This document shows positions 1,060-29,503 of a DNA stretch of 35,229 bases, in pieces (position 1 is the stretch's first letter; every line of letters starts with the position of its first letter). The notes beneath the pieces were generated by a model. That model did not search any database and was not told where the DNA came from. It saw nothing but the letters and a program-made list of their open reading frames with translations. The DNA comes from [Haemophilus] felis. GTDB taxonomy: Bacteria; Pseudomonadota; Gammaproteobacteria; Enterobacterales; Pasteurellaceae. The DNA is taken from contig MUYB01000049.1 in NCBI GenBank assembly GCA_002015125.1, positions 1 to 35,229 of the forward strand. Direction: 5' to 3'. The translations under genes were made by a program, and so were the position numbers.

Positions 1060-1068
1060 AAATGCTCC

Positions 1069-1240: not shown

Positions 1241-1256
1241 TTAGGATACCACTCAA

Positions 1257-1472: not shown

Positions 1473-1491
1473 AAGATTAGGAGGAACTGAA

Positions 1492-2090: not shown

Positions 2091-2156
2091 TTGTTTTCTC
2101 CGTTTACATTTGTTAACATTTCATTTATTATCCTGCCAAATCTCAGGAATTAGGTT

Positions 2157-2821: not shown

Positions 2822-2861
2822 GTAGCTAGCTCAGGATTTCCAATATCAATCTCCATCGTAC

Positions 2862-2951: not shown

Positions 2952-2992
2952 TGCGATAGCGGAGTTAAAAATGGTTGATTTATCCTCCTTAT

Positions 2993-3014
2993 GTTGTACA
3001 ATATCCTGTACAAC
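2993..3014. promoter_or_regulatory. YefM operator
   Basis: GTTGTACA (2993-3000) and TGTACAAC (3007-3014) form a perfect palindrome with a 6-base centre, 22 bases before yefM. TGTACA is the core recognised by E. coli YefM, so this is the expected site of autorepression. Confidence 0.75.
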
Positions 3015-3035
3015 AAATAATAAAAAGGGAAATTT

Positions 3036-3541: not shown

Positions 3542-3580
3542 ATTCATCGATTTATCGGTGGCTAAAGCCCACCCTACGCG

Positions 3581-5722: not shown

Positions 5723-5730
5723 ATCATTTC

Positions 5731-6270
5731 CTACTGTGGATAAACCGTAATAATTTCACCTGTGTATTGGGCTAAAAACGCATTAGCATTGCCTGTTGGC
5801 GATATACTAATAGCAAGTTGTGTAAGATGGCGTGAGGCAGGTTTGACATCATTAATTAAGCGAACCAGTTCATTATAGGTTTGTTCATTTAAACCTGTTT
5901 CTGATACCTCTACAGTTAGGCTGAATGTACCAGCGATGCCTTGTGGTTGGGTGTTAAACCATTCTTTTAATTCCACTAAATAGCCAATTGGTTCAACCAC
6001 TCGCTTAACGGCTGCAATAGTGCCTTTGTGTTTATGGATAAAAAAGGCTTGTTCAATAGCAAGACGTTTAACCTCTTCACTCCAATTTTCGTCCCATTTA
6101 TCCACCGAAAACGCCCAAGCAAGATAAGGCAAAAGATGAACAGGGCAACGCTTGGGATTAATTAAGTCCGCAATAATAATCGGATTTTCTACCGCACTTT
6201 TTAAAATGGTTGCGGCACGCTTTTCTAAGGTTGATGAACCCGTAGGGAGTAAGGTTTGATTAGTAATCAT
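5731..6270 (-). CDS. Tail/baseplate protein I (P2 gpI)
   Basis: 179 residues, the usual size of P2 gpI. The conserved LPYLAWAFSVDKWDENWSEE, the helical HKHKGTIAAVKRV and the terminal strand region are all present. gpI sits at the baseplate edge and links it to the tail fibre. Its start overlaps the end of gpJ by 11 bases, as in a coupled late operon (V-W-J-I-H). It appears intact, but the J gene just upstream is interrupted, which may also reduce translation of I. Confidence 0.88.
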   Translation of the reverse strand: MITNQTLLPTGSSTLEKRAATILKSAVENPIIIADLINPKRCPVHLLPYLAWAFSVDKWDENWSEEVKRLAIEQAFFIHKHKGTIAAVKRVVEPIGYLVELKEWFNTQPQGIAGTFSLTVEVSETGLNEQTYNELVRLINDVKPASRHLTQLAISISPTGNANAFLAQYTGEIITVYPQ

Positions 6271-7174
6271 CAGAAGTTACCAGTTGTAAATCAATGTCTG
6301 TGCAAAATCCTGCTTTTTCGGGGGGTAGCACAATATCTTGAGCGGGTTCAATAAGTTCCACTCGTTGCACGCCCTCAATATGCAAAGCGGCATAAATGCC
6401 AGAAAGAGAAATATCACGCCCAAGGCGATGCTTTTCCTCACTGTATTGCTTGAGATTTTTTAACGCCGTTTGTTTAATGGGTTCGTATTCAGGACCACGA
6501 TAAATATGTAACTTCGCCTGAATTTGATATTCTTGAATTGTGGCACTCTGCACGGTTACACGATCACCAATGGGGCGAATATTTTCATCATTTAGCGTTT
6601 TTCGCACCGCACTTAACACTTCTTCACTTGCGATGCCTTGCCCTTCTCAGCTTAAAATAGTTACTGTGACATAAGCAGGCTGAGGGGAAGCAACAGCAAC
6701 ATCCGCCACTTGAGAATGAGCCGAAAGCGCATGAAAAATATAAGCACTGCGAGGACCTGCCACAGATAACCCTTCAAACGCTAGCTGCGCACGCAAGCGC
6801 AAGGCGGTGTCGTCTTCGTAAATGGCGGGGATTTTCGGCGTAACCTCATTGTTTTCTGCCTGAATTAATAGTCGCTTCACATTGAAATTGGCGGCAATCA
6901 CATCTAAGTCCGCCCCCGTTGCATACGCAAGCATCGTGGCGTGAGCGGCATTATTAATACGTTGACGTTCTAAGATTTGTAAATAACAGTTTTCTTGCAA
7001 TAGTTTGGTAATAGGTTCACTTTCTAGGTTTAAGCGAGCTTGCCAAAATGGACGTTCTTCTTCCGAATACAATGCGATAAAGGCTTGTTTGCGTTGCTCA
7101 AGCAAATTTTCAAAGTTCAGTTCCTCAATAACATTTGGCTTTTCTAATTTTGATAAATCCACTAATTCGCTCAT
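6260..7174 (-). pseudogene. Baseplate assembly protein J (P2 gpJ), split by one in-frame stop
   Basis: The first 175 codons (from ATG 7174) end at TGA 6649-6647. The same frame then continues with EGQGIASEEVLSAVRKTLND to the normal stop at 6260, so read-through would give about 304 residues, the length of P2 gpJ. No frameshift is needed: related J proteins have arginine here (an SREG-type sequence), so a single CGA to TGA change explains it. J is a wedge component essential for the baseplate, so the tail should not assemble unless the stop is suppressed. A GTG at 6619 could start the second half. J overlaps W by 4 bases. Confidence 0.9.
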
Positions 7175-7509
7175 TGTTTACCACCTAAAAAAATGCCGTT
7201 TAACTCAAATTGTTTTTCTGTGTCAATTCTTCGTGCGATAAGTGTCGCCGTGATTTTGCTTTCTTCCACTTTAGGCTTAAATGCTGTAATTTGTATGCGA
7301 GGTTCCCACTTGGTTAATGCCATTACTGCCGCACTTGAAATTTGCAACAATAGGGCGTGGCTCATTGGCTTTGCGAGCAATAGGGGTATTTGGCTACCAT
7401 AATCACGCCGTTGAATGCGTGAACCAATAGGCGTGATTAAAATATCACCGATAGATTGCTTAATATGCAATCCCTCATCTTTTAGTATTTCGCCTGTGTG
7501 TTTGTTCAT
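7171..7509 (-). CDS. Baseplate protein W (P2 gpW/T4 gp25-like)
   Basis: 112 residues. The gp25/gpW signature is visible: SIGDILITPIGSRIQRRDYG, then SQIPLLLAKPM and the later TKWEPRI. This protein sits in the baseplate wedge and starts sheath assembly. It begins on the last base of V (TAATG) and overlaps J by ATGA, so V-W-J-I are translationally coupled. No damage is seen. Confidence 0.9.
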   Translation of the reverse strand: MNKHTGEILKDEGLHIKQSIGDILITPIGSRIQRRDYGSQIPLLLAKPMSHALLLQISSAAVMALTKWEPRIQITAFKPKVEESKITATLIARRIDTEKQFELNGIFLGGKQ

Positions 7510-8078
7510 TAGCTTGGTGTTCCTGTGGATCCGCCACTGTCGCCCGGGTGGGTGTGGGTCACGAGAGAGACGCCTGAAGCAACCACATCAGCAGAACAAT
7601 CAACATTTCCTGTAATTTGCATATTCCCGTGAATTAAAACATTCCCACCGATTTCTAAATCCTGTGAGCAAATCACTTTCGGGGTTTCGGCGGTAACACT
7701 GGTTTTTGCGGTAATGTGTGCAGTATTAATACCGTTTACCGTTAATGCTGAACTTGCTTGATTGTATGTAATCGTTGCACCATCTGCGAATGTAATCACG
7801 TGTTCATCTGCACTATGGCTCGGGCTATTTTGTGTGTAAAGCCCTGTTAAAATGGCGGCGGTTGTCAGCTCTCCACTCATTGCAAGCACAACACATTGTT
7901 CCCCGACCGTTGGCGGCGACCAGGTTCTTGTTGTGCCAGTGCGTAGGGTTAAAAAGGGTAAAAAATCCGTGAGAATTTGACCGCTCTTTACTCGAGCTTT
8001 AGCGGCGTTGTGATCCACTTCAGCAATCACCCCAAAGCGGAGCAGGTTTTCTATTCTTCGGTTATTATCCGCACTCAT
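7509..8078 (-). CDS. Central spike/baseplate assembly protein V (P2 gpV)
   Basis: 189 residues. Residues 1-85 are the OB-fold (FGVIAEVDHNAAKARVKSG, then WSPPTVGEQCVVLAMSGE and TAAILTGLY). Repetitive beta-helix strands follow (GNVLIHGNMQITGNVDCSAD), and the tip has HTHPGDSGG, where the HxH motif coordinates iron in P2-type spikes. The spike pierces the outer membrane at infection. It starts 123 bases downstream of the tape measure stop, after a terminator-like hairpin made of two uptake sequences. Confidence 0.9.
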   Translation of the reverse strand: MSADNNRRIENLLRFGVIAEVDHNAAKARVKSGQILTDFLPFLTLRTGTTRTWSPPTVGEQCVVLAMSGELTTAAILTGLYTQNSPSHSADEHVITFADGATITYNQASSALTVNGINTAHITAKTSVTAETPKVICSQDLEIGGNVLIHGNMQITGNVDCSADVVASGVSLVTHTHPGDSGGSTGTPS

Positions 8079-8170
8079 AAAACACTCATCTATTCAACAT
8101 AAATACGCTTATTGTTGTTGGTTTTATCAATGTGTGCGAGAGTTTGAGATTGTGAAAAGTGAAGTAACAA

Positions 8171-8195
8171 AAAACCGCACGGGCAAAGTGCGGTT
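8171..8195 (-). terminator. Uptake-sequence hairpin after the tape measure gene
   Basis: AACCGCAC (8173-8180) and GTGCGGTT (8188-8195) pair around a 7-base loop, and the minus strand continues with T after the stem. This is an inverted uptake-sequence terminator six bases after the tape measure stop, as often seen in Haemophilus. It implies V-W-J-I-H has its own promoter in 8079-8170 or relies on read-through. Confidence 0.7.
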
Positions 8196-8200
8196 ATTTC

Positions 8201-10701
8201 CTAGTCCCAATCTCGCAATGAGGAACGCATTTTGACTTGGCGTTGTTGTTCTAACTTTGCAAGTTCTTGACGGACGGCTGTCGCAATATCAACCGCACTT
8301 TGTCCTTGTGAGGCATTAATATTAATGGTGATATGCATTGGGCTATTAACAACCGCCCCTGCGCCTGTGCTTAGTGCAGGTCGATTATCAATCTGAATCG
8401 GGCTTGCTGTTGCCATACTTGAGCTAAGTCCAGCAGCCAATATACCTGCACGGGCGGATTTGGCATTATGCAATGTGTTAAGAAAGCCCGTGCCAAGTCT
8501 TGCGGTTGCGGTTTTGTTAAACACGAACTCACCTCGGTGAACAATACCTGCAGGATCGTATTTTCCACCGTTGCCTGTGTAGCCACCGTGAGAAAAGCCT
8601 ACATAACCGTTCTCTTCTTCAATTTTTCGGCTTTTATCCCCTATCCCTAGCATATTTTTAACGCCGTTTTTTAAGCCTTTAAAAGAGAAGTTTTTCACGC
8701 TGTCGATTATGTCGGCAATTGTCTCTTTTATGCTTAAAATCGGACTTAATGCTTGCGTGATGCTGTCGGTGATCTTTCCCCAAATATTAGTGGCAAAATT
8801 CTTCAAAGACTGCCAAAGGGCAGTTATGTTATTGACAACCGCATCCCACATTTCCCCCACCGATTGAGTTAACGTCAGCCAACAGTCGCGAATAAACGCA
8901 CTCACCGCATCCCAATTTTTCCAAAGGAGATACAACGCCCCAATGATTGCCCCAATCACCAAAACAATCGGATTCGCCATTAAAAGCCCAAATAAAGCAG
9001 ATATTGCACCGCCTAATACACCCAACATAGGAATGAGAATAGAAAGAGAAAACAAGAGCGGGGCAAGTGCGGTTAAAATGCCCCCTAAAATCGCCCCCAT
9101 TTGATAAAAGACGCTATTAGCCCTTTATTTTCTCTGGAAAGATCGGCGAAAAATTTCACGCTTTTAACAACCAATAAAACAATGTCCCAAAGCCCTTTAG
9201 CAACGTCCTTTATTACCGCCCCCACATCTTCCGCCCATTTTTGCAATTCGCCGTTATTTTTCATTTCGTCTAGTTTATCTAATACGCCTTTTAGCTTGGT
9301 TTTTATCCAATCAAACGCCCCCGAACTCATTACGAGCATTTGAAAATTGATCCAATGATCCTCAAGGTTGGATAAAATGCCACCTAAGGTTTCGGATTGC
9401 TTTTTCATTGCTCCTGCGTATTTTTTGTTAAAAATAGCCGTTAGCGTTTTTTCAATTTTCGCTCGGTTGTTTTTGTTTACTTTTGCCACTTGCTGAATGC
9501 CATTTTTGTCGGTGTATTCATATTCAAAGTTATTGCCTACCGCTCGGGCTTTTATACCAAACTCTTTCAAGCGTTCATTTTCACCCGCTACCGCATCCGC
9601 TATTGCCTCAACCGCCTGCATAATTGGCTTACCCATTGCCGCCCCTGTATCCCCTAGGGTTTTCAGTAGCCCATTTGTCGGGTCTAGTCCGTATGCTCGC
9701 AACTTAACAAAGGAATCCATTACTTCTTCTAAATTAAAAGGCGTTTCAATTGAGAATTGTTTCACCCAATCCATAGATTTTTTTGCTTTTTCTGCACTGC
9801 CTTCCGTGACTTCTAGAATAGACTGAAATTTTTCAAATTGGCTTGCGGTTTTTGTCATATTCACAACACCGCCCCCCACCCTTGAGAGCTGGGCAAAAAT
9901 TGAACGACCAGCGAATGCCGCCCCTATTCCGTAATGTGCAAAACTTTGTGCACCTTGAAATTTATTTACAATATTGTTTTTTATACTGCTTAACTTGTTG
10001 ATTTTCTCAAGCCATATTTTTTGCTTAGATAACGCCGTATTTGTTTTATTAATGTCATTTTTTAACTGGGTTTGACTTTGTGAGAAGTGCGTAGTTTTAA
10101 AGCCTGCTTGCCGTAATTTCCCTTGTAGCTTTTTGAGTTCGCCTGTGCTTTGGCTATATTTTTCATTCAGTTTATTTAATGCATTTTTTTCACTCTCAAA
10201 AGACTGCGTTAAACTCTTGTTTGCTTGGTTTAGCCTCTTATATTCCGCTTTGTAGGCCTTTAAATTTGCACGCAATCCTTTTAATGCTGTTCTTGTTTCG
10301 GCAATCTTCGCTTTTGCTTGCCCTCTATCTACTTGGTTCGAACTCGTTTTATAAATCATCTTTAACGCACTTAATTCTGATTTATATTGTTCTACTTTCT
10401 TTGCGGCAGGTCCTAATCTTGCAAAACTTGATTTGAGTTGCGTTTCATTGTGTGTAAGTGCTTTTTGGAGTTGTTCTGTGTTGGCTTTTGCTGTGGTTAA
10501 AGATTTTGCAAATTCATTCGCATTTTTACGAGCCTGCGCGAACTTCTCGGCATTAACTTTTACTTTATTAAATCCCTCTAGTCGACCTTGCATTTTGCCT
10601 ATTTCTTGTGCAAGTCGGTTAGCCCCTTTGGTGATATTTTTTAAGGGGGCTGTGGCTTTATCTACGGTGTTTAATAATACTTTTAATTCTAGATTTTTCA
10701 T
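8201..10701 (-). pseudogene. Tail tape measure protein, frameshifted at a G run
   Basis: The first frame, ATG 10701 to 9085 (538 codons), is a tape measure N-terminus: long coiled coil (residues 1-230, many K/A/L/Q heptads), then the TP901/gpT-type core (FEKFQSILEVTEGSAEKAK, SIETPFNLEEVMDSFVKL). It ends ASFIKWGRF-stop. The next frame, 9100 to 8201, continues GAILGGILTALAPLLFSL with hydrophobic helices and a C-terminal tail. Five G at about 9092-9097 (minus strand) would be in register if there were six (TGG GGG GCG), so one missing G splits a protein of about 830 residues. The ATG at 9100 is probably fortuitous. Either the gene is dead, the tract is phase-variable, or it is an assembly error. 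Confidence 0.85.
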
Positions 10702-10769
10702 AAGCTGTCTCTTGGTTTGACAAAATTAAAAAAATAAATATGATTTTATTTATTTCATTTGGGGGTGTT

Positions 10770-11000
10770 ATGAAAAAAGCGACAAAAAAAACGACTTTCG
10801 ATCTGCTCTTTGATTTGTTTTTAATTGCCTTGCTTCTCGCCTTTTTAGCCGGTCCCTATGTGTATCTTTATTGTTATTTAGGGATGCCGGGGGAACTCTC
10901 TATTGTTTTTGGTTTGGCTATTCAGTTTTTATTGGCTTGTCTGTTATATGGCTTTTTCGGTTCTTCCTCTTACTCTTGTTCGAACGGTTGTAAAAAATAA
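10770..11000 (+). CDS. Small membrane protein, unknown
   Basis: 76 residues from ATG 10770, which follows GGGGGTG; an ATG at 10740 lacks a ribosome site. A basic start (KKATKKTTFD) precedes two hydrophobic segments, FLIALLLAFLAGPYVYLYCY and IVFGLAIQFLLACLLYGFF, and the end is cysteine- and serine-rich. It lies opposite to the tail genes, between S and the tape measure, where P2-like phages usually have sheath, tube and tape-chaperone genes. I do not recognise a family. Position and orientation suggest a passenger gene, perhaps acting at the membrane (inference). Confidence 0.5.
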   Translation: MKKATKKTTFDLLFDLFLIALLLAFLAGPYVYLYCYLGMPGELSIVFGLAIQFLLACLLYGFFGSSSYSCSNGCKK

Positions 11001-11021
11001 GACCTTTTTTAAGGAAATAGT

Positions 11022-11309
11022 ATGGCATTATTCCTGCTCTTATTCGCAGCACCCATTTTGATGCTGATTTCTGTTGCTTCCCTTGTTTTTGGTGCGATTT
11101 CTGACGCCTTGCCTGTTATGTTGTTACTCGCCCTTTTGTGCGTGTTGGGCGGTTTATTGTTGTTGCCTTTTCAACACAAAATCCAATATGCTCATCAACG
11201 CCTTAACGCCTTTCATCAATGGCTTGAAAAACATAATAAATGGGGTGTTTATTTCACTATTGTGGTGTTTACCCTAACATTGATTTATCACCTTTTGTTT
11301 GTGTGGTGA
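11022..11309 (+). CDS. Small membrane protein, unknown
   Basis: 95 residues. Three hydrophobic segments are visible: residues ~2-24, ~29-50 (LPVMLLLALLCVLGGLLLLPF) and ~76-94 (the C-terminus, ending in YHLLFVW). A basic, amphipathic stretch (HKIQYAHQRLNAFHQWLEKH) lies between the second and third. AAGGAAATAGT precedes the ATG. It is 21 bases after the previous small membrane gene and probably co-transcribed with it. No family is recognised. Membrane passengers of prophages often block superinfection, but nothing here proves that. Confidence 0.55.
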   Translation: MALFLLLFAAPILMLISVASLVFGAISDALPVMLLLALLCVLGGLLLLPFQHKIQYAHQRLNAFHQWLEKHNKWGVYFTIVVFTLTLIYHLLFVW

Positions 11310-11338
11310 TAATTGCAACACACCGCTACTACTGCTAT

Positions 11339-11780
11339 TCATACGCTTAACTGCTGAATAATCAACGCCTCTATCATTTCTTTATCTTGTTCCGTAAAAC
11401 CAAGTAATTCTCGCTTTGCATATTGTGCTTTGTAATTTCGCTTGCGGTGCACTCGGCTTTTTAAACCGTATTGATGCACAGAAGCAATATGTGCATCACT
11501 GCCCCAAAATCCGACACTTAACTGTTCGCCTTTTGTGTTGGTTTTTAAGAATTTGGCACGTCTTAATTTCACAAACATTCCTTTGCGTTTGATACGTCCC
11601 CTTTTTTGCGGTTTTCTTGGTGCAAAAGGTGTGCCATCAGGATTTTGTTGTTTTGCGATGCGTTGTCTTTGGCTTTGGGCGAGTTTTCGCCCAATATTTC
11701 TTTTCAGCTGTTTTAGTGCTTTAGGACTGAGATTAGCTAAAAGTGCGGTAAATTTTGCCTCAATGTCATCAACTGTCGCC
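11339..11780 (-). pseudogene. Tail completion protein S (P2 gpS), start lost to IS insertion
   Basis: The frame runs from the IS boundary (about 11780) to the stop at 11339. The protein begins KATVDDIEAKFTALLANLSP, then LAQSQRQRIAKQQNPDGTPF and APRKPQKRG, a good P2 gpS/virion morphogenesis match, with FVKLRRAKFL and a normal C-terminus. Only the first few residues and the start codon are missing; the in-frame DNA inside the IS reaches a TAG with no start. gpS caps the tail tube. An ATG at 11578 would give only the last 79 residues. Confidence 0.8.
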
Positions 11781-11922: not shown

Positions 11923-13064
11923 TTACGCTTGGACGACGACCCGTCCACGTGCTAACACATTGATTGCACCAACCACATCAGCATTTTCTATGTAACCACA
12001 TTCAACACATTCAAAATGTGCTTGTGTTTCACGGTTTGCTTTTGCGGTATGACCACAGCAAGGGCAAGTTCGGCTCGTGTTTTGCGGAGGAACGGCTATC
12101 AAAAAGCCTCCTCGCCATTGTGTTTTGTAGTCTAGCTGACGGCGAAACTCAAACCAAGACTGGTCGAGTATCGCTCGGTTTAGCCCTGATTTCTGTTTCA
12201 CGTTTTTTCCGTGTGCCTCTAGCGTACCTTTCGCCGATTTGGACATATTCGCAATTTGTAAATCTTCAACGTAAATCATGGCGTGGTTTTTGCTGATTTT
12301 GCTTGAAGTTTGATGCAAGAAGTCTTTGCGACAGTTGGCTATTTTATGGTGCAACTTGGCGATTTTTGCCTTTAATTTCAGCCAGTTTTGGCTGAATTTT
12401 GTTTTATTTTTCAGTTTTCTTTGCAGTTTTGCCAATTTTCCCTGATAGGTTTTAAAGGCGTTCAATGGCTCAAAAAATTCACCATTGGAAAGTGTCGCAA
12501 AACGAGCAACCCCCATATCTATACCGATTTCTCCACCTTTGTGTGTGGGAATTTCGTGTTCAAATTCCGTTTGAATGCTCACAAAAAAGCGACCGCACTT
12601 TTGGCTGACGGTCACATTTTTGATTTCGCCTAGCACTTCGCGGCTATTGCGATAGCGAACCCAACCGATTTTCGGTAGATACAAGCGGTCATTTTCTTGC
12701 TCAATTTTGCAACCTTGCGGAAAACGAAAGCTCTCTTTTAAGCCTTTCTTCTTGAATTTTGGAAAATCTGACCGCTTGGAAAAGAAATGTTAAACGCACT
12801 TTCTAAATCTTTTAGCGACTGCTGAAGGACTTGGGAATGGCATTCTTTAAGCCACACAAGCTCTTTTTTCCACTGTGGAAGTAGGTTGGCGATTTTGGTG
12901 TAGCTGAATTTGAACGCATTGTCTTGCTCATACTGCTCATTTTGCCAAGCCAACGCTCGATTGAATACAAAACGAGAACAGCCACAGAACTGCTTAATTC
13001 TGCGGATTTGGCTGCCATTTGGCATTATCTCGAACTTAAAGGCTTTGCGTAGTTGCATTGACAA
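11923..13064 (-). pseudogene. tnpB: TnpB RNA-guided nuclease, single frameshift
   Basis: Frame one (13064-12738) gives the N-terminus (RKAFKFEIMPNGSQIRRIKQ, then FVFNRALAWQNEQY) to AFN; frame two (open from about 12770 to 11923) gives the rest. Adding one A in AACATTTC (near 12790) restores AFNNFFSKRSDFPKFKKKG, so one deleted base splits a ~380-residue protein. RuvC residues remain: D in GIDMGVARF, E in YVEDLQ, D in NADVVGAINV, and the zinc finger CPCCG/CVECG. TnpB cuts the donor-like site to favour retention of the IS. The damage is recent, because the rest is well kept. Confidence 0.88.
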
Positions 13065-13104
13065 GGTTTAGAATAGGATTTTCTATCCATTCTACACTTG
13101 GTCT

Positions 13105-13521
13105 ATGCAAAAAGAAACCGATATTCGACACGGCAGACATTGCGTTTTTTATATGCACGTTCATTTGGTTTTTGTGACTAAATACCGCCGTGATGTTTTT
13201 ACGAAAGCGATTTTAAATGAACTCAAATTGATTTTTGAAAGCGTCTGCCATGATTTTGAAGCGAAATTGGTGGAATTTGACGGCGAAGATGATCACGTTC
13301 ATTTGCTAGTGGAATATCCGCCTAAAATTGCCGTATCAACATTGGTAAACAGCCTAAAAGGCGTTTCAAGCCGTATGATTAGACGGAAAAACTATCCAAG
13401 TCTCCGCAAAAAACTTTGGGGTAATCAGCTTTGGTCACCGTCTTATTTTGCAGGTAGTTGTGGTGGTGCACCTATATCTATTATTCGTCAATACATCGAG
13501 CAACAACAAACACCTGATTAG
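13105..13521 (+). CDS. tnpA: IS200-type Y1 transposase TnpA
   Basis: 138 residues, typical for the single-strand HUH transposases of IS200/IS605. The VFYMHVHLVFVTKYRR start, the HUH metal site DDHVHLLVEYPPK and the catalytic tyrosine in IIRQYIEQQ are all present, together with the LWSPSYFAGSCGG segment. It excises and inserts the element as single-stranded circles during replication, using hairpins at each end. It starts 40 bases from tnpB in the opposite direction. No disruption is seen, so the element may still move even though TnpB is broken. Confidence 0.92.
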   Translation: MQKETDIRHGRHCVFYMHVHLVFVTKYRRDVFTKAILNELKLIFESVCHDFEAKLVEFDGEDDHVHLLVEYPPKIAVSTLVNSLKGVSSRMIRRKNYPSLRKKLWGNQLWSPSYFAGSCGGAPISIIRQYIEQQQTPD

Positions 13522-22237: not shown

Positions 22238-22600
22238 TTAAATCGCTTGAATAAGTACGTCTGCCCCTATGCCTAAATGCTTATTCACATTTCGGATCAT
22301 ATTCAGCGATAGCGGTCTAGTTCGATTTAACACCTCATACACTCGGTTAGCTTTCCCGATAATTGGCTCAAGGTCTTTTACGGTTAGCTCGTCCTGTTCC
22401 ATTCTGAATTTTATCGCTTGAATTGGGTCAGGTAATTCAACGGGGTAATGCTTGCTTTCGTAGTTTTCAATAAGTGTTATCATCACATCAAAGAAATCTA
22501 GCTCTGATTGCGTTAGCTCGTCCTCACGGTCAAATAACGGCTCAACGGCTTGTAATGCTTGTTGATAGTCTTGCTCTGTTCTAATCGGTTTAATCTGCAT
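22238..22600 (-). CDS. higA: HigA antitoxin
   Basis: 120 residues. The N-terminal part (RTEQDYQQALQAVEPLFDRE) and the LPDPIQAIKFRMEQDELTVKD segment are typical of HigA; the HTH follows (DLEPIIGKANRVYEVLNRTR, then SLNMIRNVNKHLGI). HigA binds and inactivates HigB and represses their promoter. It lies 9 bases after higB, toxin first, the normal order for this family. It probably stabilises the satellite in the chromosome and may also respond to phage attack (inference). Confidence 0.9.
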   Translation of the reverse strand: MQIKPIRTEQDYQQALQAVEPLFDREDELTQSELDFFDVMITLIENYESKHYPVELPDPIQAIKFRMEQDELTVKDLEPIIGKANRVYEVLNRTRPLSLNMIRNVNKHLGIGADVLIQAI

Positions 22601-22609
22601 AATGCCCCC

Positions 22610-22909
22610 CTATAATTCCACATCGTCCGCATTGATTTTGTCATATTCGGAATGTGTGCCAATAAATTTAATGTAAACCGCCCCTAATCTAAACGCCACC
22701 GCCACAATTAGGCGGTAATCATTGCCCTTTATGTTGAAAACCACACGGCGATTTTTTAGTACGCTCGCATTTTTATATTGAGCTTTTATATCGTGCATTG
22801 TCTGCCAATTCGCCCGTTTTACTTCTGCAATCCACGCTTTAAGCGGTTGCTCTGTTTCGGGGTGTTGTTGGTAGTAATTGACTAAAGTCGATATGGCAAT
22901 AATTCGCAT
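22610..22909 (-). CDS. higB: HigB mRNA interferase toxin
   Basis: 99 residues of the HigB/RelE-like type that pairs with long HigA: IIAISTLVNYYQQHPETEQP, WIAEVKRANWQTMHDIKAQY and the basic NRRVVFNIKGNDYRLIVAV with the conserved FIGTHSEYDKINA. It cleaves mRNA on the ribosome. Its promoter is unusually clear (see 22938-22966). The module lies between the replication origin and the distal end of the island. Confidence 0.9.
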   Translation of the reverse strand: MRIIAISTLVNYYQQHPETEQPLKAWIAEVKRANWQTMHDIKAQYKNASVLKNRRVVFNIKGNDYRLIVAVAFRLGAVYIKFIGTHSEYDKINADDVEL

Positions 22910-23490: not shown

Positions 23491-25716
23491 CTATGCTTCG
23501 CTTTCTTCTTCCTCTTTTTCGTTGATTGGATAAAGTAAAAAGCACCTTGTTCTCTTGGAATCTATTTTGTGTGGCAATCTTCGCAAAAACTTATAACGCC
23601 CCTCGCCCTTATCTAGTAACCCTTTTTCTGCCAAAATCTTACAGCTTTGTTCTTTGGGGTGTCCTTTGGTTGCTTCTTCAAACGCCAACGGGTAAAGATA
23701 AAAATGTTCATCTTCCCCCTTGTCGTTGCTTTCGGGAATTATTCTATACCCTGCGACATTGTGGACGGTCTGCCGTTGGAAAGGATCGAAAGGGTAGCGA
23801 ATAAAACGCCCCTCTGCGTTAGCTAATAGCCACCCATTAACCTGTTCTATAATCTGCCGTTCTTCTCGGCTATGGTAACCGAAAATATTGACCCATTCAC
23901 TAAACGCTTTACTAATTGCCGTTTCGCTTTCCTCTTTTTGCCAGCCTGTGAGGTTTTGACTTAGCAAAAGTGCGGTTTCTAACAGACTAAAACGGCTTAC
24001 TACTCGCTTAACTTGTGAATGTGCGTCATTGGGTAGGGTTTCCAGTCTTCGGCTTAATATGGCTTGATAAAGTGGCTTTATTTGGTCTTGTTGATGTAAA
24101 TCAATTAATTGACTGATCCACGCTCTACCCACTACACCATAATTCAAACGGCTTGCTTGGTTTAAATAATCGGCGTGTGTCTTGCCGTCTTGGTGTTGGT
24201 GGAATTGTTCCGCCCGTTGAATGGGAATATTAAGCAATCGCACCAACTGCCCCACATTGGTTTTTATCCCTGCGTTAGTAAGATAGGTTTCTAAATCGAT
24301 TTCTCCAGTGGAAAACGCCACCGTTCGCCAACGTGCTAAATCTCTATTTCCGCCCTCTTTTGCTCCTTGTAGCTTGCCTACGCCATTAAATAGGGTGTAG
24401 GCGGTATCTGCGACTTGTTTGCGGTTTGAGCCTTGTCCGATTTCATCTAAAGGCATAAAGCCGTCATTGCGTGCTTGTGCTTCATTGCTTAACCCAAGTG
24501 CGGTAGAAAACCAGCTGAGTCTAACTTCTTCAGGGTTGGCATAAATAGAACTAGCAATATTGGCTATCGTGGTTTTTCCTGTGGAGCTTCCCCCAAAAAT
24601 ATGAACGCCAAAACTTTCTGCATTAACAAGGTGAATTAATGGGGCGGACAACGCCACTGCCACCCCTAACATCATAAAATAATTTCCTTTCACATTGTCG
24701 GCTATTTCCCTTTGCCAGCTTTCAAGAGTGCCGCTTTGAGTATAAGCGGTTTTATTGGCGGATTGACCTACGAAAAAAACAGGGGTTTGCGGTTTTCCTA
24801 TGACTTCGCCATTTGGCAAGATGTACGCCCCTTTTTGCCAGCCTGTAGAATTGACAACATTATAAAAGCCCTTGCCTTGATAACGTTGCAAATAATCGGC
24901 TAAGTGCGGTCGCAATTTTTGGCTATTGGTAATATTTAGCCCATTTTTGCGGAGTAGTTGCCAGCCAGCCCGTTCGCCTACTTCTCGCAAGGGTAGGGCG
25001 ATAGTTTTCGCTTCTTCGCTCCCGTAGGGGGTAAATTTCAGCATAGTGTAGTAGTCGTCATCACTTCGACCCATTGCCACCACCTCCACCACATCGGACA
25101 ACCATTCTACTTTTTCGCTTAATAGTTCCCCTGTGTGATTGTCGTATTTTGGAGTAATGCGATATAAGCCCTTTATTTCGCCCTCTGTGCGGTTTTCGAT
25201 ATAGGGCTGGCGTTTATCTTGCCTTGTGTCTGTTTTTGTTTCTATGCGTCTTTCTGTGATGTTTTCGGCTAATTTCAACGCTTCGCTATTGGTGCGTAGC
25301 TTTTTGATGTAATCGCTTAGGTTTTCTTTTTCCTGTCCTAAGCTATCACATAGTAAAACGCTGTCCGCCTCTGTTCTTATAGCGATATTTTGACAAAGTG
25401 CTGTAACTTGTCTTTGTGGAAGTTCGCCAAACTGGACAATTTTAATAAATCGCTGTGTTGGTGGAGCGATTTTGAGATCCGCCACTTCCTCCAGTGCCTC
25501 ACTTGAAAGAATAACGGGCTTATTTGTTGGCTCGGCTGATATCACCTGACAAAGTAATAGCCATTCTTCCCCTTGTCCTTTGCGGCTGTTTCCTTTTCTG
25601 TCTGTGCCAGTTCCCCAAGCTTGCCACGCTCCACCACCAGCAAGAATTAACCAATCATCAAACGGGCTTGCTTGTTGTTGTTCTAAGTGCGGTGCTTTTT
25701 TGAGTTTATTTGCCAT
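23491..25716 (-). CDS. DUF927-family replication ATPase/helicase
   Basis: 741 residues. Residues 1-150 form a TOPRIM-like/primase-like region (WLILAGGGAWQAWG, then VLLCDSLGQEKENLSDYIKK). The centre and C-terminus are the DUF927 helicase domain: YRITPKYDNHTGELLS, Walker A GGSSTGKTT (375-383), Walker B FMPLDEIGQ (near 420-428), and WRTVAFSTGEIDLETYL, an RNA/DNA helicase sensor region. It is the likely Rep of the island, acting at the iterons just downstream. It begins where the upstream 67-residue gene ends, with an 11-base overlap. Cysteine-poor and full length. Confidence 0.85.
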   Translation of the reverse strand: MANKLKKAPHLEQQQASPFDDWLILAGGGAWQAWGTGTDRKGNSRKGQGEEWLLLCQVISAEPTNKPVILSSEALEEVADLKIAPPTQRFIKIVQFGELPQRQVTALCQNIAIRTEADSVLLCDSLGQEKENLSDYIKKLRTNSEALKLAENITERRIETKTDTRQDKRQPYIENRTEGEIKGLYRITPKYDNHTGELLSEKVEWLSDVVEVVAMGRSDDDYYTMLKFTPYGSEEAKTIALPLREVGERAGWQLLRKNGLNITNSQKLRPHLADYLQRYQGKGFYNVVNSTGWQKGAYILPNGEVIGKPQTPVFFVGQSANKTAYTQSGTLESWQREIADNVKGNYFMMLGVAVALSAPLIHLVNAESFGVHIFGGSSTGKTTIANIASSIYANPEEVRLSWFSTALGLSNEAQARNDGFMPLDEIGQGSNRKQVADTAYTLFNGVGKLQGAKEGGNRDLARWRTVAFSTGEIDLETYLTNAGIKTNVGQLVRLLNIPIQRAEQFHQHQDGKTHADYLNQASRLNYGVVGRAWISQLIDLHQQDQIKPLYQAILSRRLETLPNDAHSQVKRVVSRFSLLETALLLSQNLTGWQKEESETAISKAFSEWVNIFGYHSREERQIIEQVNGWLLANAEGRFIRYPFDPFQRQTVHNVAGYRIIPESNDKGEDEHFYLYPLAFEEATKGHPKEQSCKILAEKGLLDKGEGRYKFLRRLPHKIDSKRTRCFLLYPINEKEEEESEA

Positions 25717-26396: not shown

Positions 26397-26764
26397 TTTT
26401 TGCCCCCTAGCCAGTAAGCAGACAAAGCAAAATCATTCACGTGTTTAATCTCCACTTCAGAAAGGAAAGGGAAAAGGGTTTTAAAGTTCTTGATAACGCT
26501 CTTATCACTCAACCCCTTTATTTTTCCGCCTGTGAGCATTTGCCCTGTAAATCCGCCTTCTTGAAAGCGTAAAACAACAACGTAAGGCGAGATTTCATTG
26601 ATTAAAAATAATTGTCCTGTTTTGTGAAAATGCTCTTTAGCGAACTGTTCCGCCTCTGCTTTGCTATTGGCAAGGTGTTTAATCACTGCAAGGCTTTTCC
26701 CCTCTAGTAATCGCCCTGCGTCGCTTAGGTCTTGATAATCCATAATCGCAAATACGTTACTCAT
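26390..26764 (-). CDS. Hypothetical protein, 124 residues
   Basis: Start at ATG 26764 rather than the preceding ATG 26767. Mixed alpha/beta: FAIMDYQDLSDAGRLLEGKS, KAEAEQFAKEHFHKTGQLFL, ISPYVVVLRFQEGGFTGQML and a helical C-terminus. It overlaps its neighbours by 7-8 bases. No recognisable motif. Such small alpha/beta proteins are typical of satellite and phage early operons, where some act as anti-defence or host-takeover factors; nothing specific supports that here. Confidence 0.6.
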   Translation of the reverse strand: MSNVFAIMDYQDLSDAGRLLEGKSLAVIKHLANSKAEAEQFAKEHFHKTGQLFLINEISPYVVVLRFQEGGFTGQMLTGGKIKGLSDKSVIKNFKTLFPFLSEVEIKHVNDFALSAYWLGGKKC

Positions 26765-27098
26765 CATTTCCCCCTTTCACTATGCTGATAGTGCTAACAT
26801 TGAGATAACTAAAATCATTATTGGCTTGTGCTGCTCTGATGTCGCTTTTTATCCGCAAGGCTCTTGCAAGGGTTACGCCCTCCGCACAAATAAATTGACT
26901 GCCGTCTTGATAGACTAAAACAACGTTATAGCCTTGTGGCTTTGGCTCTGTGGTTTCGTATAGCTCCACTTTCAGCACATCAGGCTTTGATAACATTGCT
27001 TGCTTAACTTTCTCGGCCTGTTCAATGGTTGAATAGTCGCAAGTGTGTTCTAGTTCGTGGTCTGCATTAAAGACTTCTAGGCGGTAAACTTTAGACAT
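26757..27098 (-). CDS. Hypothetical protein with two similar halves
   Basis: 113 residues. Residues 4-50 (YRLEVFNADHELEHTCDYST, EQAEKVKQAML, VLKVELYET) and 57-105 (YNVVLVYQDGSQFICAEGVT, LARALRIKSDI, LNVSTISIV) follow the same strand-strand-helix-strand pattern, so the gene may be an internal duplication of a ~48-residue unit. It overlaps the next gene by 8 bases. No family recognised. Confidence 0.6.
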   Translation of the reverse strand: MSKVYRLEVFNADHELEHTCDYSTIEQAEKVKQAMLSKPDVLKVELYETTEPKPQGYNVVLVYQDGSQFICAEGVTLARALRIKSDIRAAQANNDFSYLNVSTISIVKGGNDE

Positions 27099-27195
27099 AA
27101 GCCACCCCCATAGTTTGAGGGTTGCCCAAAGTTGGGCAGTGGGCTTTAACTTCCCCCGTTGGGGTAAGTGCGGTGTGTTTTTGAAAGGTTTTCAT
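27091..27195 (-). CDS. 34-residue product of regulatory module C
   Basis: The frame is open from 27513 (140 codons), but its first 106 codons coincide with a CRP-like site, terminator and structured RNA, so translation more likely starts at ATG 27195 (MKTFQKHTALTPTGEVKAHC, 34 residues). It ends by overlapping the next gene by 8 bases, which suggests a leader-peptide or coupling role. The Icd-like C-terminal domain of the two sister modules is missing, so module C may be a shortened or Ash-type relative. Confidence 0.4.
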   Translation of the reverse strand: MKTFQKHTALTPTGEVKAHCPTLGNPQTMGVAYV

Positions 27196-27204
27196 TTTGA
27201 TAGT

Positions 27205-27333
27205 CTCGATAGTTTTGTTAGTAAAAAGATTTCCGCCCTGTAAAGGGTGTGAAATGGTCTCAACTACCGCTATCGAACGGCTAGCGTTATTCGTGCGACT
27301 AGTCGCCTTATTTCCGCTTATCAACCATTTCAC
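27205..27333 (-). ncRNA. Structured RNA of module C
   Basis: On the minus strand, UCGAUAG (27276-27270) can pair with CUAUCGA next to the gene (27212-27206) or with an identical CUAUCGA in the leader (27425-27419). GUGAAAUGG (27333-27325) and CCAUUUCAC (27257-27249) close a 9-base stem. A perfect 12-base dyad GCGACTAGTCGC lies at 27295-27306. The layout copies modules A and B, although the fold is different in detail. Confidence 0.5.
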
Positions 27334-27384
27334 AAATTCGGATATAGAACGGGTTAGTAGCCCATTGATAGGAATTTGAGAAAT

Positions 27385-27412
27385 AAAAAATGCACTTGAA
27401 TAAGGGTAGTGC
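27385..27412 (-). terminator. Leader terminator of module C
   Basis: GCACT/AGTGC (27392-27396, 27408-27412) then six T on the minus strand (27390-27385). It lies between the CUAUCGAG leader site (27425-27418) and the structured RNA, at the same place as in modules A and B. Confidence 0.6.
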
Positions 27413-27465
27413 TTGCCCTCGATAGTTGTAGTGCTTTCAATGATATTCGGTTTTATTAGGTTCTG

Positions 27466-27487
27466 TAAAGTGATTGAGATCACATTT
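27466..27487 (-). promoter_or_regulatory. CRP-like palindrome of module C
   Basis: Minus strand AAATGTGATCTCAATCACTT with TGTGA-N6-TCACT. The same 22-base box recurs at 27953-27974 and 29429-29450. AATATC or TAATAA about 30 bases downstream could be the -10 of a class II activated promoter. Confidence 0.6.
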
Positions 27488-27505
27488 TTGAATAAAGGGC
27501 AATTT

Positions 27506-27652
27506 TTACGCATAAACGCCCCCTTTTACTCTTGCATAGAAAACGGCTTGATTGCGGTCTAGGTTGAGAAGTTGGCGTGCTTCGGCTTCGCTGTTGGCAT
27601 AGGTGGCGATTTTTAGGCGTCTTTTGCCTAGTAAAATGAATTTGAATAGCAT
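27506..27652 (-). CDS. Icd-like (cell division inhibitor-like) protein, module A
   Basis: 48 residues from ATG 27652 (LFKFILLGKRRLKIATYANS, then EAEARQLLNLDRNQAVFYAR). This matches the C-terminal domain of phage Icd-like proteins, F-I-F-x-A-I-R-R then a strand and an S-E-x-E-A-R helix. The frame is open back to 28003, but those 117 codons overlap regulatory elements and yield the RAFFIRSTRTP and CNRKGSALCCV peptides that recur in database Icd-like entries; I think they reflect RNA conservation. The ribosome site GGAG (27667-27664) lies in the 3' strand of the C4-like outer stem and would be hidden when folded. Icd of phage P1 inhibits cell division; that activity here is inferred. Confidence 0.6.
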   Translation of the reverse strand: MLFKFILLGKRRLKIATYANSEAEARQLLNLDRNQAVFYARVKGGVYA

Positions 27653-27664
27653 TTTTGCGGTTGC

Positions 27665-27749
27665 TCCAATGTTAGATTTTAGGGCTACCGCTCGACTTCT
27701 CAGGGTTTGGCGGTAACGTGTAACAGGCTGAGAAACTGCGAACATTGGA
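27665..27749 (-). ncRNA. C4-like antisense RNA/pseudoknot, module A
   Basis: Outer stem TCCAATGTT/AACATTGGA (27665-27673, 27741-27749), inner stem TACCGC/GCGGTA (27686-27691, 27710-27715). The inner loop's TTCTCAG (27697-27703) is complementary to CTGAGAA (27728-27734) between the stems, making a pseudoknot. Both strands of the pairs recur in the leader at 27868-27894. Sequence and layout resemble the C4 antisense RNA of phages P1/P7 and P4-like elements. Transcribed with the minus-strand operon. Confidence 0.7.
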
Positions 27750-27835
27750 ACACAGCAAAGGGCGGAACCTTTCCTATTACACGCTACCATAGATAGACGC
27801 TCTAGGCGTGCTTTGGGTGTGCGTGTGCTACGAAT

Positions 27836-27859
27836 AAAAAAAGCACGGTTTGGCGTGCT
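27836..27859 (-). terminator. Leader terminator of module A
   Basis: AGCACG/CGTGCT (27842-27847, 27854-27859) with a 6-base loop and seven T on the minus strand. It overlaps codons for AFF in the long frame. A leader RNA of about 80-90 bases would end here. Confidence 0.8.
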
Positions 27860-27867
27860 ACTATTCG

Positions 27868-27894
27868 CCAATGTTTTATTATTCGAGTTCTCAG
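27868..27894 (-). promoter_or_regulatory. Leader antisense targets a'/b' of module A
   Basis: On the minus strand CUGAGAA (27894-27888) and AACAUUGG (27875-27868) are identical to the loop and ribosome-site strands of the C4-like RNA, and complementary to its 5' strands. They sit just before the terminator, where pairing could decide termination or trap the RNA. Confidence 0.7.
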
Positions 27895-27952
27895 GCTCGG
27901 CGGTCGTTTTTTGCGACTGCGCGAATAAAATACCGCACTTTTGGGCTTGTTG

Positions 27953-27974
27953 TAAAGTGATGGAGATCACATTT
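27953..27974 (-). promoter_or_regulatory. CRP-like palindrome of module A
   Basis: Minus strand TGTGATCTCCATCACT, in the same 22-base context as the other two boxes. TATTTT (27932-27927) is a suitable -10 with the box centred near -42. It falls inside the long open frame, which argues that transcription begins downstream. Confidence 0.6.
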
Positions 27975-28087
27975 CTACAAAAATCTCGTTTTCTTACTGT
28001 CATCTTGTTATAATCCTTTTGTTTATTGGTGCTAAATGATTGTCTATAACCCTGTCGGCTTGCTGGTGGGGTTTTTTATTTGGGTTG

Positions 28088-28486
28088 TTAGTGAAGTTCA
28101 TCTCCAAAATTCACATTTATTGAGGTAGGCAGCATATCTATATTTTTCAGCTCTATTTGTTGCTTATCAAAGCCTAAAATCTTTGCTTTTCCCATTGTTG
28201 CTGATACGGCTACGCTATAAGCCCCATTCTCTAACGCCCCTTTACGTGCGATTTCCAGTTCATCTAATAAATCATTTACTGTAATGTTGTGCCGTTTGGC
28301 GTGTTCTGTTTGTAGCTCGTTAATTCTTGCCGTTATCTTGCTGTTATCCATTAACTCTTTTGCTCTACGGTTTACGGTTTCAGGTTTCATATTCTCAGCG
28401 TTGTAAACTTGGCGATAGGCTTCACTAGCATTGCCTAGCTCGATATATTTCAAGCAGAAATTTTCTTGTTTCTGTGTTAATGTCAT
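28088..28486 (-). CDS. Terminase small subunit (TerS)
   Basis: 132 residues of the Terminase_2 family: LTQKQENFCLKYIELGNASE, AYRQVYNAENMKPETVNRRA, LMDNSKITARINELQ and a C-terminal segment (GKAKILGFDKQQIELKNI) that contacts the large subunit or portal. TerS recognises the packaging site. No TerL, portal or capsid gene exists in the island, so this protein should work with a helper phage's large subunit to package satellite DNA, as in PICIs. Its start overlaps the previous gene by 4 bases (ATGA). Confidence 0.88.
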   Translation of the reverse strand: MTLTQKQENFCLKYIELGNASEAYRQVYNAENMKPETVNRRAKELMDNSKITARINELQTEHAKRHNITVNDLLDELEIARKGALENGAYSVAVSATMGKAKILGFDKQQIELKNIDMLPTSINVNFGDELH

Positions 28487-28824
28487 TCCATCACCTCAAT
28501 TTTTTTATTATTATCGTTCGCCTTTTCTTGCCTTAACTTTTGAGCAAATAAATTCATCAATGAGGCAAAATAAATAAAGTCCAAAACGCTCTTCTTCTCT
28601 TGCTCGTATTGCTCATTAGGTAAATTCTCCGCCCCCTCTGAAAAGCCTTTTCCCCCTTTTAAAATGGACTTGTAGAACTGGTTTAATTCTCGCTGTAATG
28701 CTTTTCTGTCTTTGATTTCAATCCCTTTAAGTGCGTTGCTGGCAAAGTTAAAAACAAAGGTCAAATTTGGATAACGCTCTTTCATTTCATCAAGGGTCAA
28801 AAAAGGGCTTTTCTGTTCTTTCAT
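28483..28824 (-). CDS. Hypothetical protein upstream of terS
   Basis: 113 residues, helical: FLTLDEMKERYPNLTFVFNF, KALQRELNQFYKSILKGGKG and SVLDFIYFASLMNLFAQKLR. It overlaps the Icd-like gene and terS by 4 bases each, so it is made with TerS. No family recognised. A partner for TerS or a capsid-size or host factor is possible given the position, but unproven. Confidence 0.6.
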   Translation of the reverse strand: MKEQKSPFLTLDEMKERYPNLTFVFNFASNALKGIEIKDRKALQRELNQFYKSILKGGKGFSEGAENLPNEQYEQEKKSVLDFIYFASLMNLFAQKLRQEKANDNNKKIEVME

Positions 28825-29108
28825 TGTCTTTTCTCCAGTATCTTGTTTAGCTTAGTTAATGTTTGCCTTGCTCCTAGTGCTTGTTTTTGCAAAAAAGTCG
28901 CGTGGTGGTGCTTTCGGATTTTGGCTAATAATTCCTTGTCTTGGTAATCGCTTCCTTTTAGCTTGGCGTTATCGCTTAATAAAAATCGCTCAAAGTCTTT
29001 TGCTAGGCGTGAACGTGCTTCTTGCTCACTGTCGGCAATAATGCGGATTTTTTGAATAGTATTGGTTAAGTCGGTGCGTCTAATTGACGCAAAGATGAAT
29101 TGATACAT
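28821..29108 (-). CDS. Icd-like protein, module B
   Basis: 95 residues from ATG 29108 (YQFIFASIRRTDLTNTIQKI, RIIADSEQEARSRLAKDFER), a clear Icd-like core, with a helical lysine-rich extension (KLKGSDYQDKELLAKIRKHH to the end). The frame is open back to 29477, giving 218 residues, but the added part covers the leader, terminator and RNA (RSLRTPKE, GRNGQRLIVGCFPVEAVFHP). GGAG (29121-29118) is the ribosome site and belongs to the 3' strand of the outer stem. In P1 the related Icd blocks cell division; here expression should depend on escape from the RNA lock. Confidence 0.65.
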   Translation of the reverse strand: MYQFIFASIRRTDLTNTIQKIRIIADSEQEARSRLAKDFERFLLSDNAKLKGSDYQDKELLAKIRKHHHATFLQKQALGARQTLTKLNKILEKRQ

Positions 29109-29119
29109 TTGGGAAAGCT

Positions 29120-29201
29120 CCAGTAGTAGATTTTTAGTACCTACCGCAAGTTTCCACGCTTGGCGGTAGGACGTAACGGGGTGGAAAACTGCCTCTACTG
29201 G
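29120..29201 (-). ncRNA. C4-like antisense RNA/pseudoknot, module B
   Basis: Outer stem CCAGTAG/CTACTGG (29120-29126, 29195-29201), inner stem CCTACCGC/GCGGTAGG (29140-29147, 29163-29170), pseudoknot TTTCCAC (29151-29157) with GTGGAAA (29181-29187). The fold is that of module A, but outer stem and pseudoknot differ in sequence on both sides, so the pairings are supported by covariation within one element. Confidence 0.75.
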
Positions 29202-29309
29202 AAAACAGCCAACGATTAAACGTTGCCCATTACGCCCCACCATTGATAGAACTGAACGCCCCTGATTTTTCAGGATCGTTTTTTCTTTGGGTGTGCGTAA
29301 GCTACGAAC

Positions 29310-29336
29310 AAAAAAAGCACGAATTGAAGGCGTGCT
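29310..29336 (-). terminator. Leader terminator of module B
   Basis: AGCACG/CGTGCT (29316-29321, 29331-29336), 9-base loop, seven T on the minus strand. Same stem as module A with a different loop. Confidence 0.8.
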
Positions 29337-29344
29337 AGTGTTCG

Positions 29345-29371
29345 CCAGTAGTAAATTATTCGAGTTTCCAC
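29345..29371 (-). promoter_or_regulatory. Leader antisense targets a'/b' of module B
   Basis: Minus strand GUGGAAA (29371-29365) and CUACUGG (29351-29345) repeat exactly the module B pseudoknot loop and outer-stem strands. Spacing to each other and to the terminator matches module A. Confidence 0.75.
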
Positions 29372-29428
29372 GCTCGGTTCTAGATTTTGCTAGAACGTTT
29401 TTAAGATAAGCTAAAATGCTTGCTTGTG

Positions 29429-29450
29429 TAAAGTGATCTAAATCACATTT
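29429..29450 (-). promoter_or_regulatory. CRP-like palindrome of module B
   Basis: Minus strand AAATGTGATTTAGATCACTT, the closest of the three to the E. coli CRP consensus. TTATCT (about 29409-29404) fits a -10 with the box near -41.5. Confidence 0.65.
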
Positions 29451-29503
29451 TTGAAATAAAGTTAAAAATCTCTGCATAAATTGCCTCTAAAGTGCAGTTG
29501 TTT

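Follow-up and report, generated by a model that had tools for sequence, protein, structure and literature searches.

The window analysed here is the whole stretch of 35,229 nucleotides (nt) from [Haemophilus] felis (contig MUYB01000049.1). Its subject is three RNA modules, A, B and C, carried on the minus strand by an element that, judged by its genes, looks like a phage-inducible chromosomal island (PICI)/P4-type satellite of the Pasteurellaceae. From 29.5 to 27.1 kb the order is module B, a frame of 113 amino acids (aa), the small terminase gene, module A and module C, after which come small frames and then a primase/helicase gene. An earlier note on this DNA had described for each module a CRP-like palindrome, leader copies of short words, a terminator, a structured RNA and a small gene behind a ribosome site. 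All the words were present in this order on the minus strand:

29432 to 29447, minus strand: module B CRP-like box TGTGATTTAGATCACT, overlapping the -35-like TTTACA
29310 to 29396, minus strand: module B leader, isrK-type (RF01394, 50.3 bits, cut-off 50), with terminator; words GTGGAAA at 29371-29365 and CTACTGG at 29351-29345
29159 to 29247, minus strand: module B C4 antisense RNA by profile (RF01695, 64.8 bits, cut-off 45) and fold; loop word CCAGTAG at 29201-29195, spacer word TTTCCAC at 29187-29181
29119 to 29157, minus strand: module B target words GTGGAAA at 29157-29151 and CTACTGGA at 29126-29119, the latter over the Shine-Dalgarno sequence; ATG at 29108
28821 to 29477, minus strand: nested frame B, 218 aa, with a C-terminal Icd-like protein (Phage_ASH 45.5 bits; phage_ICD_like 54.9 bits, cut-off 25)
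27956 to 27971, minus strand: module A CRP-like box TGTGATCTCCATCACT
27836 to 27920, minus strand: module A leader, isrK-type (RF01394, 39.6 bits, below the cut-off of 50), with terminator; words CTGAGAA at 27894-27888 and AACATTGG at 27875-27868
27706 to 27794, minus strand: module A C4 antisense RNA by profile (RF01695, 60.2 bits, cut-off 45) and fold; loop word CCAATGTT at 27748-27741, spacer word TTCTCAG at 27734-27728
27665 to 27703, minus strand: module A target words CTGAGAA at 27703-27697 and AACATTGGA at 27673-27665, the latter over the Shine-Dalgarno sequence; ATG at 27652
27506 to 28003, minus strand: nested frame A, 165 aa, with a C-terminal 48-aa Icd-like protein (Phage_ASH 29.3 bits, cut-off 26; phage_ICD_like 17.7 bits, below the cut-off of 25)
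27469 to 27484, minus strand: module C CRP-like box TGTGATCTCAATCACT
27385 to 27425, minus strand: module C leader word CTATCGA at 27425-27419 and terminator with T-run at 27390-27385 (layout present in 22 loci)
27249 to 27333, minus strand: module C structured RNA, sRNA-Xcc1-like, with loop word TCGATAG at 27276-27270 (covariation, isolated fold and the model R1 described below)
27206 to 27212, minus strand: module C target word CTATCGA, 10 nt before the ATG at 27195
27091 to 27513, minus strand: nested frame C, 140 aa, with a 34-aa peptide at its C-terminal end

The RNAs of modules A and B exceeded the cut-off of the C4 family and were both predicted to fold into the C4 shape, in agreement with the C4-type logic proposed for them. 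A match to c4-a1b1 (RF03163) in module B, at 29357-29409, reached 34.1 bits and stayed below the cut-off. Both RNAs have a GGU near the 5' side of the stem, the motif named in the part of PMC5320573 available to us, and may be processed by RNase P to about 77 nt. For module C no Rfam match was obtained within the window at E values up to 1, whether to C4, isrK or RF02221, and the idea that its RNA is of the C4 type was not borne out. Cut out alone, this RNA takes its consensus shape.

At all three modules the pattern TGTGA-N6-TCAC-N-TTACA, a CRP-like box over the -35 region, is present (starting at 29447, 27971 and 27484), as the palindromes reported earlier would have it. By comparison with a TGTGA-N6-TCACA-like consensus, the boxes and their spacing make these candidate CRP-dependent class II promoters. 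Close by, the 9-nt word AAGTGCGGT or its complement lies at 27940-27932 in the module A promoter and at 27174-27166 at the start of the module C small gene; it is presumably a Haemophilus-type DNA uptake word.

In the window no stop codon interrupts the frame of the downstream small gene when it is followed back through the antisense RNA and into the leader, at A, B and C alike. In addition, frame A ends where frame C has its upstream start, the two codons overlapping in ATGCGTAA (27513-27506).

Words and RNA structures among homologues

The word matches of the window are, taken singly, no more than moderately unlikely, and homologues were therefore needed to decide. Searches over more than 40 genomes were run with stricter filters, by which weak matches are lost. 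The covariance search with RF01695, which finds A and B and passes over module C in the window, exceeded its cut-off in at least 95 of 140 Pasteurellaceae genomes. From these and other sources 136 C4 modules were taken (117 from the genome matches listed, 17 from viral contigs and the 2 of the window; near-identical copies in genome G091 and some others were omitted). After removal of duplicates and modules with short flanks, 129 distinct usable modules remained. Loop and spacer words matched their own leader and downstream region more closely than other loci in all four tests, with none of 5000 permutations reaching the observed mean. A loop word of at least 7 nt was present downstream in 124 of the 129 modules and a spacer word in 128, drawn from a vocabulary of 60 loop words and 16 spacer words that make 99 two-word codes. 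The loop word ends a median of 9 nt before the ATG, from which it follows that the antisense loop would cover the ribosome site. Genome G091 itself has at least 27 C4, 27 R1 and at least 28 RF02221 matches over many contigs, which may reflect amplification or a redundant assembly.

For module C, 26 loci were gathered from searches of the 140 genomes and from Pasteurella phage Pmp8, which was found by DNA match and has the same layout with another word, CAAAAGA, at all three sites. Four duplicates were dropped, which left 22 distinct loci for comparison. The match of own words exceeded that of all 5000 permutations in the leader as well as downstream, and in 21 of the 22 loci the same word of at least 6 nt is common to leader, loop and start-site target. 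The earlier note had named absent conservation of the pairings in homologues as what should overturn it; in the C4 and in the module C set they are conserved.

The module C RNA has four helices. Over the 22 loci 98.4% of the cells of the named structure are paired and 15 of the 23 pairs are changed on both sides, whereas pairing drops to 30-44% when the structure is slid along the alignment. RNAalifold recovers the helices that had been read by eye, and 13 of the 21 pairs it predicts are double-changed. When the 22 RNAs are folded alone, every one forms the complete target hairpin and no fewer than 9 of the 10 outer pairs. The pairs between leader and loop, tested as a pseudoknot, are standard in 95.5% of cases and have a covariation of 0.839 against 0.231 when shuffled (0 of 500). 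The sequence CAAATTC after the leader terminator is also conserved in the 22 loci and can pair with GAATTTG just before the RNA; in the window this pairing forms the competing helix of a 211-nt fold and could represent a second fold state.

A covariance model built from the module C RNA, R1, found 38 places at or above 93.9 bits in 25 of the 140 genomes, plus a weaker band, and matched in 20 of 394 genomes drawn from the order, a set that overlaps partly with the 140. When 25 of the 38 places (L203-L227) were scanned, a C4 RNA over cut-off was found within 1.5 kb in 24, and it lies upstream of module C in 22 of these 24. In eight relatives, Pmp8 and seven genome loci, RF01695 left module C unmatched at E values up to 10. 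Fourteen R1 loci of the weaker band or of the order-level search were also scanned: 10 matched RF02221, the family of sRNA-Xcc1, 8 of them over its cut-off, and R1 aligns to RF02221 loci with most of the same helices. Conversely, RF02221 scored 24.6 and 23.4 bits in 2 of 8 module C loci, against a cut-off of 53. Because R1 finds RF02221 loci and RF02221 weakly matches two of the module C loci, module C is best seen, by its sequence, as an unregistered distant relative of sRNA-Xcc1 and not as a C4 RNA.

RF02221 exceeded its cut-off in at least 66 of the 140 Pasteurellaceae genomes and in 11 of 369 genomes drawn from the class. Sixty sRNA-Xcc1 loci were collected, of which 2 at contig ends were dropped, leaving 58 (44 over the cut-off). 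Here too loop and spacer matched their own leader and downstream region in all four tests, with 0 of 5000 permutations. At 6 nt or more the loop word was found at both sites in 37 of 58 loci, the spacer word in 40, either in 48 and any match in 50; among the loci over cut-off the loop word was at both sites in 30 of 44. The background, a single-site match of at least 6 nt between different loci, was 22-31%. The nested frame was sought in these loci and not found (open in 7, 4 and 6 of 50 for the three frames). Nine hand-picked proteins out of the 50 genes behind sRNA-Xcc1 comprised four SymE toxins, four proteins with Bro-N and/or P22 antirepressor domains and one with KilA-N. Four sRNA-Xcc1 copies (L270:1255-1452, L245:411-608, L247:627-824 and L271:1053-1247) lie directly 5' of SymE-type toxin genes, with start-site words complementary to the RNA. 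Close tandem copies also occur in Pasteurellaceae (G070:C1:1351077/1351364, G033:C1:2338797/2339049 and G019:C2:1000834/1001043).

It seems fairly probable that C4, module C and sRNA-Xcc1 form one superfamily of antisense switches with hypervariable codes. Within it, sRNA-Xcc1 would serve locally in immunity or as an antitoxin: it would block the start site of the gene that follows (SymE toxins, Bro-N/P22-type antirepressors), and a leader copy of the target would in turn match the RNA. Eight of the 58 loci were without any both-site match of 6 nt. If true, sRNA-Xcc1 gains a concrete local target, which point changes could test.

Arrays, nested frames and the element

Tandem arrays recur in the Pasteurellaceae and are not particular to this element. 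Those located, a non-random draw, numbered 32 with 71 modules, and the array counts are lower bounds. At least five arrays besides that of the window contain three or more modules: three C4 and C in G072:C37, two C4 and C in each of G072:C12, G135:C21 and G032:C2, and one C4 with two C in G040:C26. The view that three specificities in one satellite are special, and with it the uniqueness of the window array, was rejected on these numbers. The claim that the words pair within their own module held well across the arrays: own words of at least 7 nt were found at both sites in 58 of the 71 modules, against 1 of 94 comparisons for the words of another module of the same array. In the four serial modules of G072:C37 (L092 / L148), in-frame starts reach 1638 nt back from the module C ATG, across several modules.

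The frame test was done on 125 C4 modules, 4 of the 129 being excluded for want of a downstream frame. In 99 of them the small-gene frame ran open through the C4 RNA and on into the leader, the two other frames doing so in 2 and 1; for module C it was open through the RNA into the leader in 20 of 22 loci and the other frames in none. A start near the end of the upstream frame was found by script in 15 of the 22 module C loci, some probably by chance, and eight were counted as true start/stop overlaps. By analogy, the nested frames are the eta/kil arrangement of satellite P4. According to the part of PMC10111431 available, full-length Eta is made only once the upstream late promoter is active, and its translation prevents termination; the same source has C4 and isrK profiles matching several Gram-negative PICIs. 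The Icd-like frames (28821-29477 in the window; Pmp8_0007 in L039) are called 'transcriptional repressor' by profiles and annotation, names that may reflect their overlap with the RNA switch.

The full CRP-type pattern gave 14 matches in 2.44 million redundant strand-bases of the fetched loci. These are 9 distinct promoters, and all 9 belong to C4 or C modules. By a looser score, 11 of the 136 modules reached 9 of the 10 CRP core bases, against 1 of 136 in each of two controls. In the C4 promoter of G114:C1 the slot of the CRP-like box is taken by TTGATTTATATCAA, which we take to be an FNR-like box from the FNR consensus.

The other genes of the element named above are:

28088 to 28486, minus strand: small terminase subunit (PF03592, 7.9e-16; phrog_51)
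23491 to 25716, minus strand: DUF927/primase-helicase, the presumed replication gene, downstream of the array (PF06048, 8.2e-47; phrog_1139)

Upstream of the array lie a winged-helix protein, an excisionase/AlpA-type protein and an integrase that adjoins the tmRNA gene. The integrase profile scored 418 bits against a cut-off of 434; with the excisionase-type protein, the small terminase and the primase, these genes give the element its satellite-like appearance, as was supposed earlier. Its left edge was not found in the window: exact repeats of the tmRNA 3' end at other positions are at most 13 nt long. The tmRNA tag speaks for a Pasteurellaceae host, as do the relatives of protein B, which number 19 in the genome contigs and are all in Pasteurellaceae; among the named phages protein B has no match. 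The frame of module C has no relatives in the viral contigs, and the protein at 26757-27098 has none in the viral or genome contigs. Outside the element, inspection by eye pointed to tail and baseplate genes of a Mu-like prophage, distinct from the satellite, at 505-11600. Read by eye from the translations, an IS200/IS605-like transposase with a TnpB-like frame in two pieces lies at 11923-13521, and two gene pairs resembling toxin-antitoxin systems lie at 3036-3541 and 22238-22909.

A probable layered switch and the alternatives

The order, the words, their conserved pairing and orthogonality, the RNA structures and the open frames are established at the level of sequence, and a way in which they would work together can be outlined. 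In each module a short transcript would stop at the leader terminator. Read-through would give the C4 or C4-like RNA. Its loop word would pair with the Shine-Dalgarno region of the small gene that follows, blocking translation; in A and B a spacer word would pair as well. The leader copy of the word may titrate the antisense RNA or tune termination, for which IsrK and P4 seqA offer precedents. Each small gene forms the 3' part of a longer frame whose start lies upstream of the module promoter, and ribosomes on the upstream transcript may sweep leader and antisense RNA and so override the block, as in P4 eta/kil. Because frames A and C overlap at stop and start, the opening of A should carry over to C and from there to the replication genes, in a layered switch with non-crossing codes. 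Through the CRP-like boxes the carbon status of the host may feed in. The region would thus be a layered P4-type immunity array, three antisense-RNA switches with CRP-like promoters ahead of the small terminase and replication genes of a satellite-like element, to which we give a probability of about 0.77. Within it our confidence is higher for the pairing itself and lower for CRP and the override.

Several observations weigh against this. Some words of the window are weak: its ten word matches of 7-9 nt were reached in 3 to 177 of 1000 dinucleotide shuffles. The C4 loop word of a locus equals or beats all other loci in just 49% (leader) and 66% (downstream) of cases and the spacer word in just 6% and 31%. 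These low percentages arise because words recur between loci, the spacers having a small vocabulary. For module C the corresponding figures are 68% and 91%, and in the exception L089 leader and target match different parts of the loop. The own match at both sites is missing in 13 of 71 array modules at 7 nt or more, and at 6 nt, where 64 of 71 match, so do 15 of the 94 cross comparisons. The minimum-energy fold of module C in its 211-nt window context prefers a competing helix. Further pair types in the module C helices were reached by 14 of 500 shuffles; for the leader-loop pairs double changes were reached by 98 and further pair types by 101 of 500. The open frame is absent in 26 of 125 C4 modules. 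Outside the window the full CRP-type pattern is confined to 6 promoters, and 2 of the 11 modules with the looser score have the box outside the slot that overlaps the -35. The precedents themselves differ in the sign of the leader effect: the P4 leader serves immunity, whereas the short IsrK of Gifsy-1 activates. Finally, the whole case is argued from sequence, from which Rho dependence is not readable.

The earlier note had left it between three independent switches and a layered one. Separately acquired switches, each controlling its own small gene without hierarchy, are a possible but rather unlikely alternative. Every module does come with a promoter-like sequence, a terminator and a code of its own, C4 modules widely occur singly, and 1 of the 25 scanned module C loci had no C4 over cut-off nearby. 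Yet for A and C the stop/start overlap favours layering, C follows C4 in nearly all linked loci, and all three frames point toward the replication gene. It is more doubtful still that the extra codes are a library that guards against superinfecting relatives with the same code, one module alone controlling the element. Heteroimmunity of P1 and P7 rests on C4 words, codes recur between loci (the loop word AACATTGG is found in several), and arrays of up to four modules exist. However, no module of the window is a bare guard RNA, because each has its own target and small gene in cis.

That module C is a decayed C4 RNA which lost one word was considered improbable and rejected. It shares with C4 the position, the order, the nested frame, an outer stem and a hairpin presenting the target word. 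Against this stand the lack of any C4 match on it, in the window at E values up to 1 or in the eight relatives at up to 10, the reach of R1 to sRNA-Xcc1 loci, two of eight module C loci being weakly matched by RF02221 in turn, and a structure conserved across 22 loci, because of which we do not regard it as decay. Least credible is an origin of the repeated words in protein coding (Ash/Icd-like) or recent duplication instead of RNA pairing. The region is indeed an open reading frame and matches Phage_ASH, but the antisense copies are reverse complements, not expected from coding repeats, the words vary between loci with their complements following, and the helices show compensatory changes; coding repeats were rejected on these grounds. 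Chance as the source of the words was rejected by the permutations of the C4, module C and sRNA-Xcc1 sets.

Relation to known systems

With the layered array as the preferred reading, RNA immunity of phages and satellites appears modular and coded: many modules, with interchangeable words, stand in series with little cross-talk and share their sequence with a protein frame. The modules would be a natural set of orthogonal RNA regulators, and module C points to a likely job for the widespread sRNA-Xcc1, whose role was previously unsettled. In the parts available to us, PMC2996969 and PMC12189769 treat sRNA-Xcc1 as a virulence-linked small RNA (sRNA) with many predicted targets, the latter giving 212 for Xylella and five tandem copies in an island; in Xanthomonas integrons it is placed upstream of symE, with the mechanism left unexplained in what was available of PMC12444791. 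A literature search of limited reach, on partial texts, found no paper proposing a C4-type mechanism for it.

Modules A and B resemble the C4 of P1/P7 (RF01695, with c4-a1b1 RF03163) in the C4 fold, the loop and spacer words, the target over the Shine-Dalgarno sequence and the upstream word copies. Unlike P1/P7, this one element has several modules, an open frame through the RNA and CRP-like promoters. Satellite P4, with its CI RNA, seqA/seqC and nested kil/eta, shares the leader and downstream targets, the frame that runs through the immunity RNA from an upstream start and the position ahead of the replication genes; one CI RNA is described in the portions of the P4 literature available, whereas here three codes stand in series. 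Gifsy-1 IsrK/STnc1160/orf45-anrP (RF01394) likewise has a terminated leader RNA complementary to a downstream structured RNA and a small frame. According to the available part of PMC4825925, the short IsrK activates translation of its own read-through mRNA, and a comparison with P4 seqA and CI is drawn there; Gifsy-1 differs in having one module, in controlling an antirepressor-like gene and in activating in trans. In sRNA-Xcc1 (RF02221) as in module C, a leader word recurs at the start site and has its complement in the loop of a hairpin. Module C scores below the RF02221 cut-off, has one variable word and sits in a nested frame, whereas RF02221 loci have loop and spacer words, show no sign of a nested frame and lie ahead of SymE, antirepressor or other genes.

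The Group 1 sRNAs of Acinetobacter baumannii offer a parallel, one genome holding many C4-like RNAs whose words differ; the sections of PMC5320573 available to us make no mention of tandem arrays inside a single element. The single C4/isrK module, the nested frame of P4 and, from the same partial source, the many C4-like RNAs per genome were thus already known. As far as our searches go, the serial arrays with separate codes, the module C RNA and the application of this logic to sRNA-Xcc1 as well are new.

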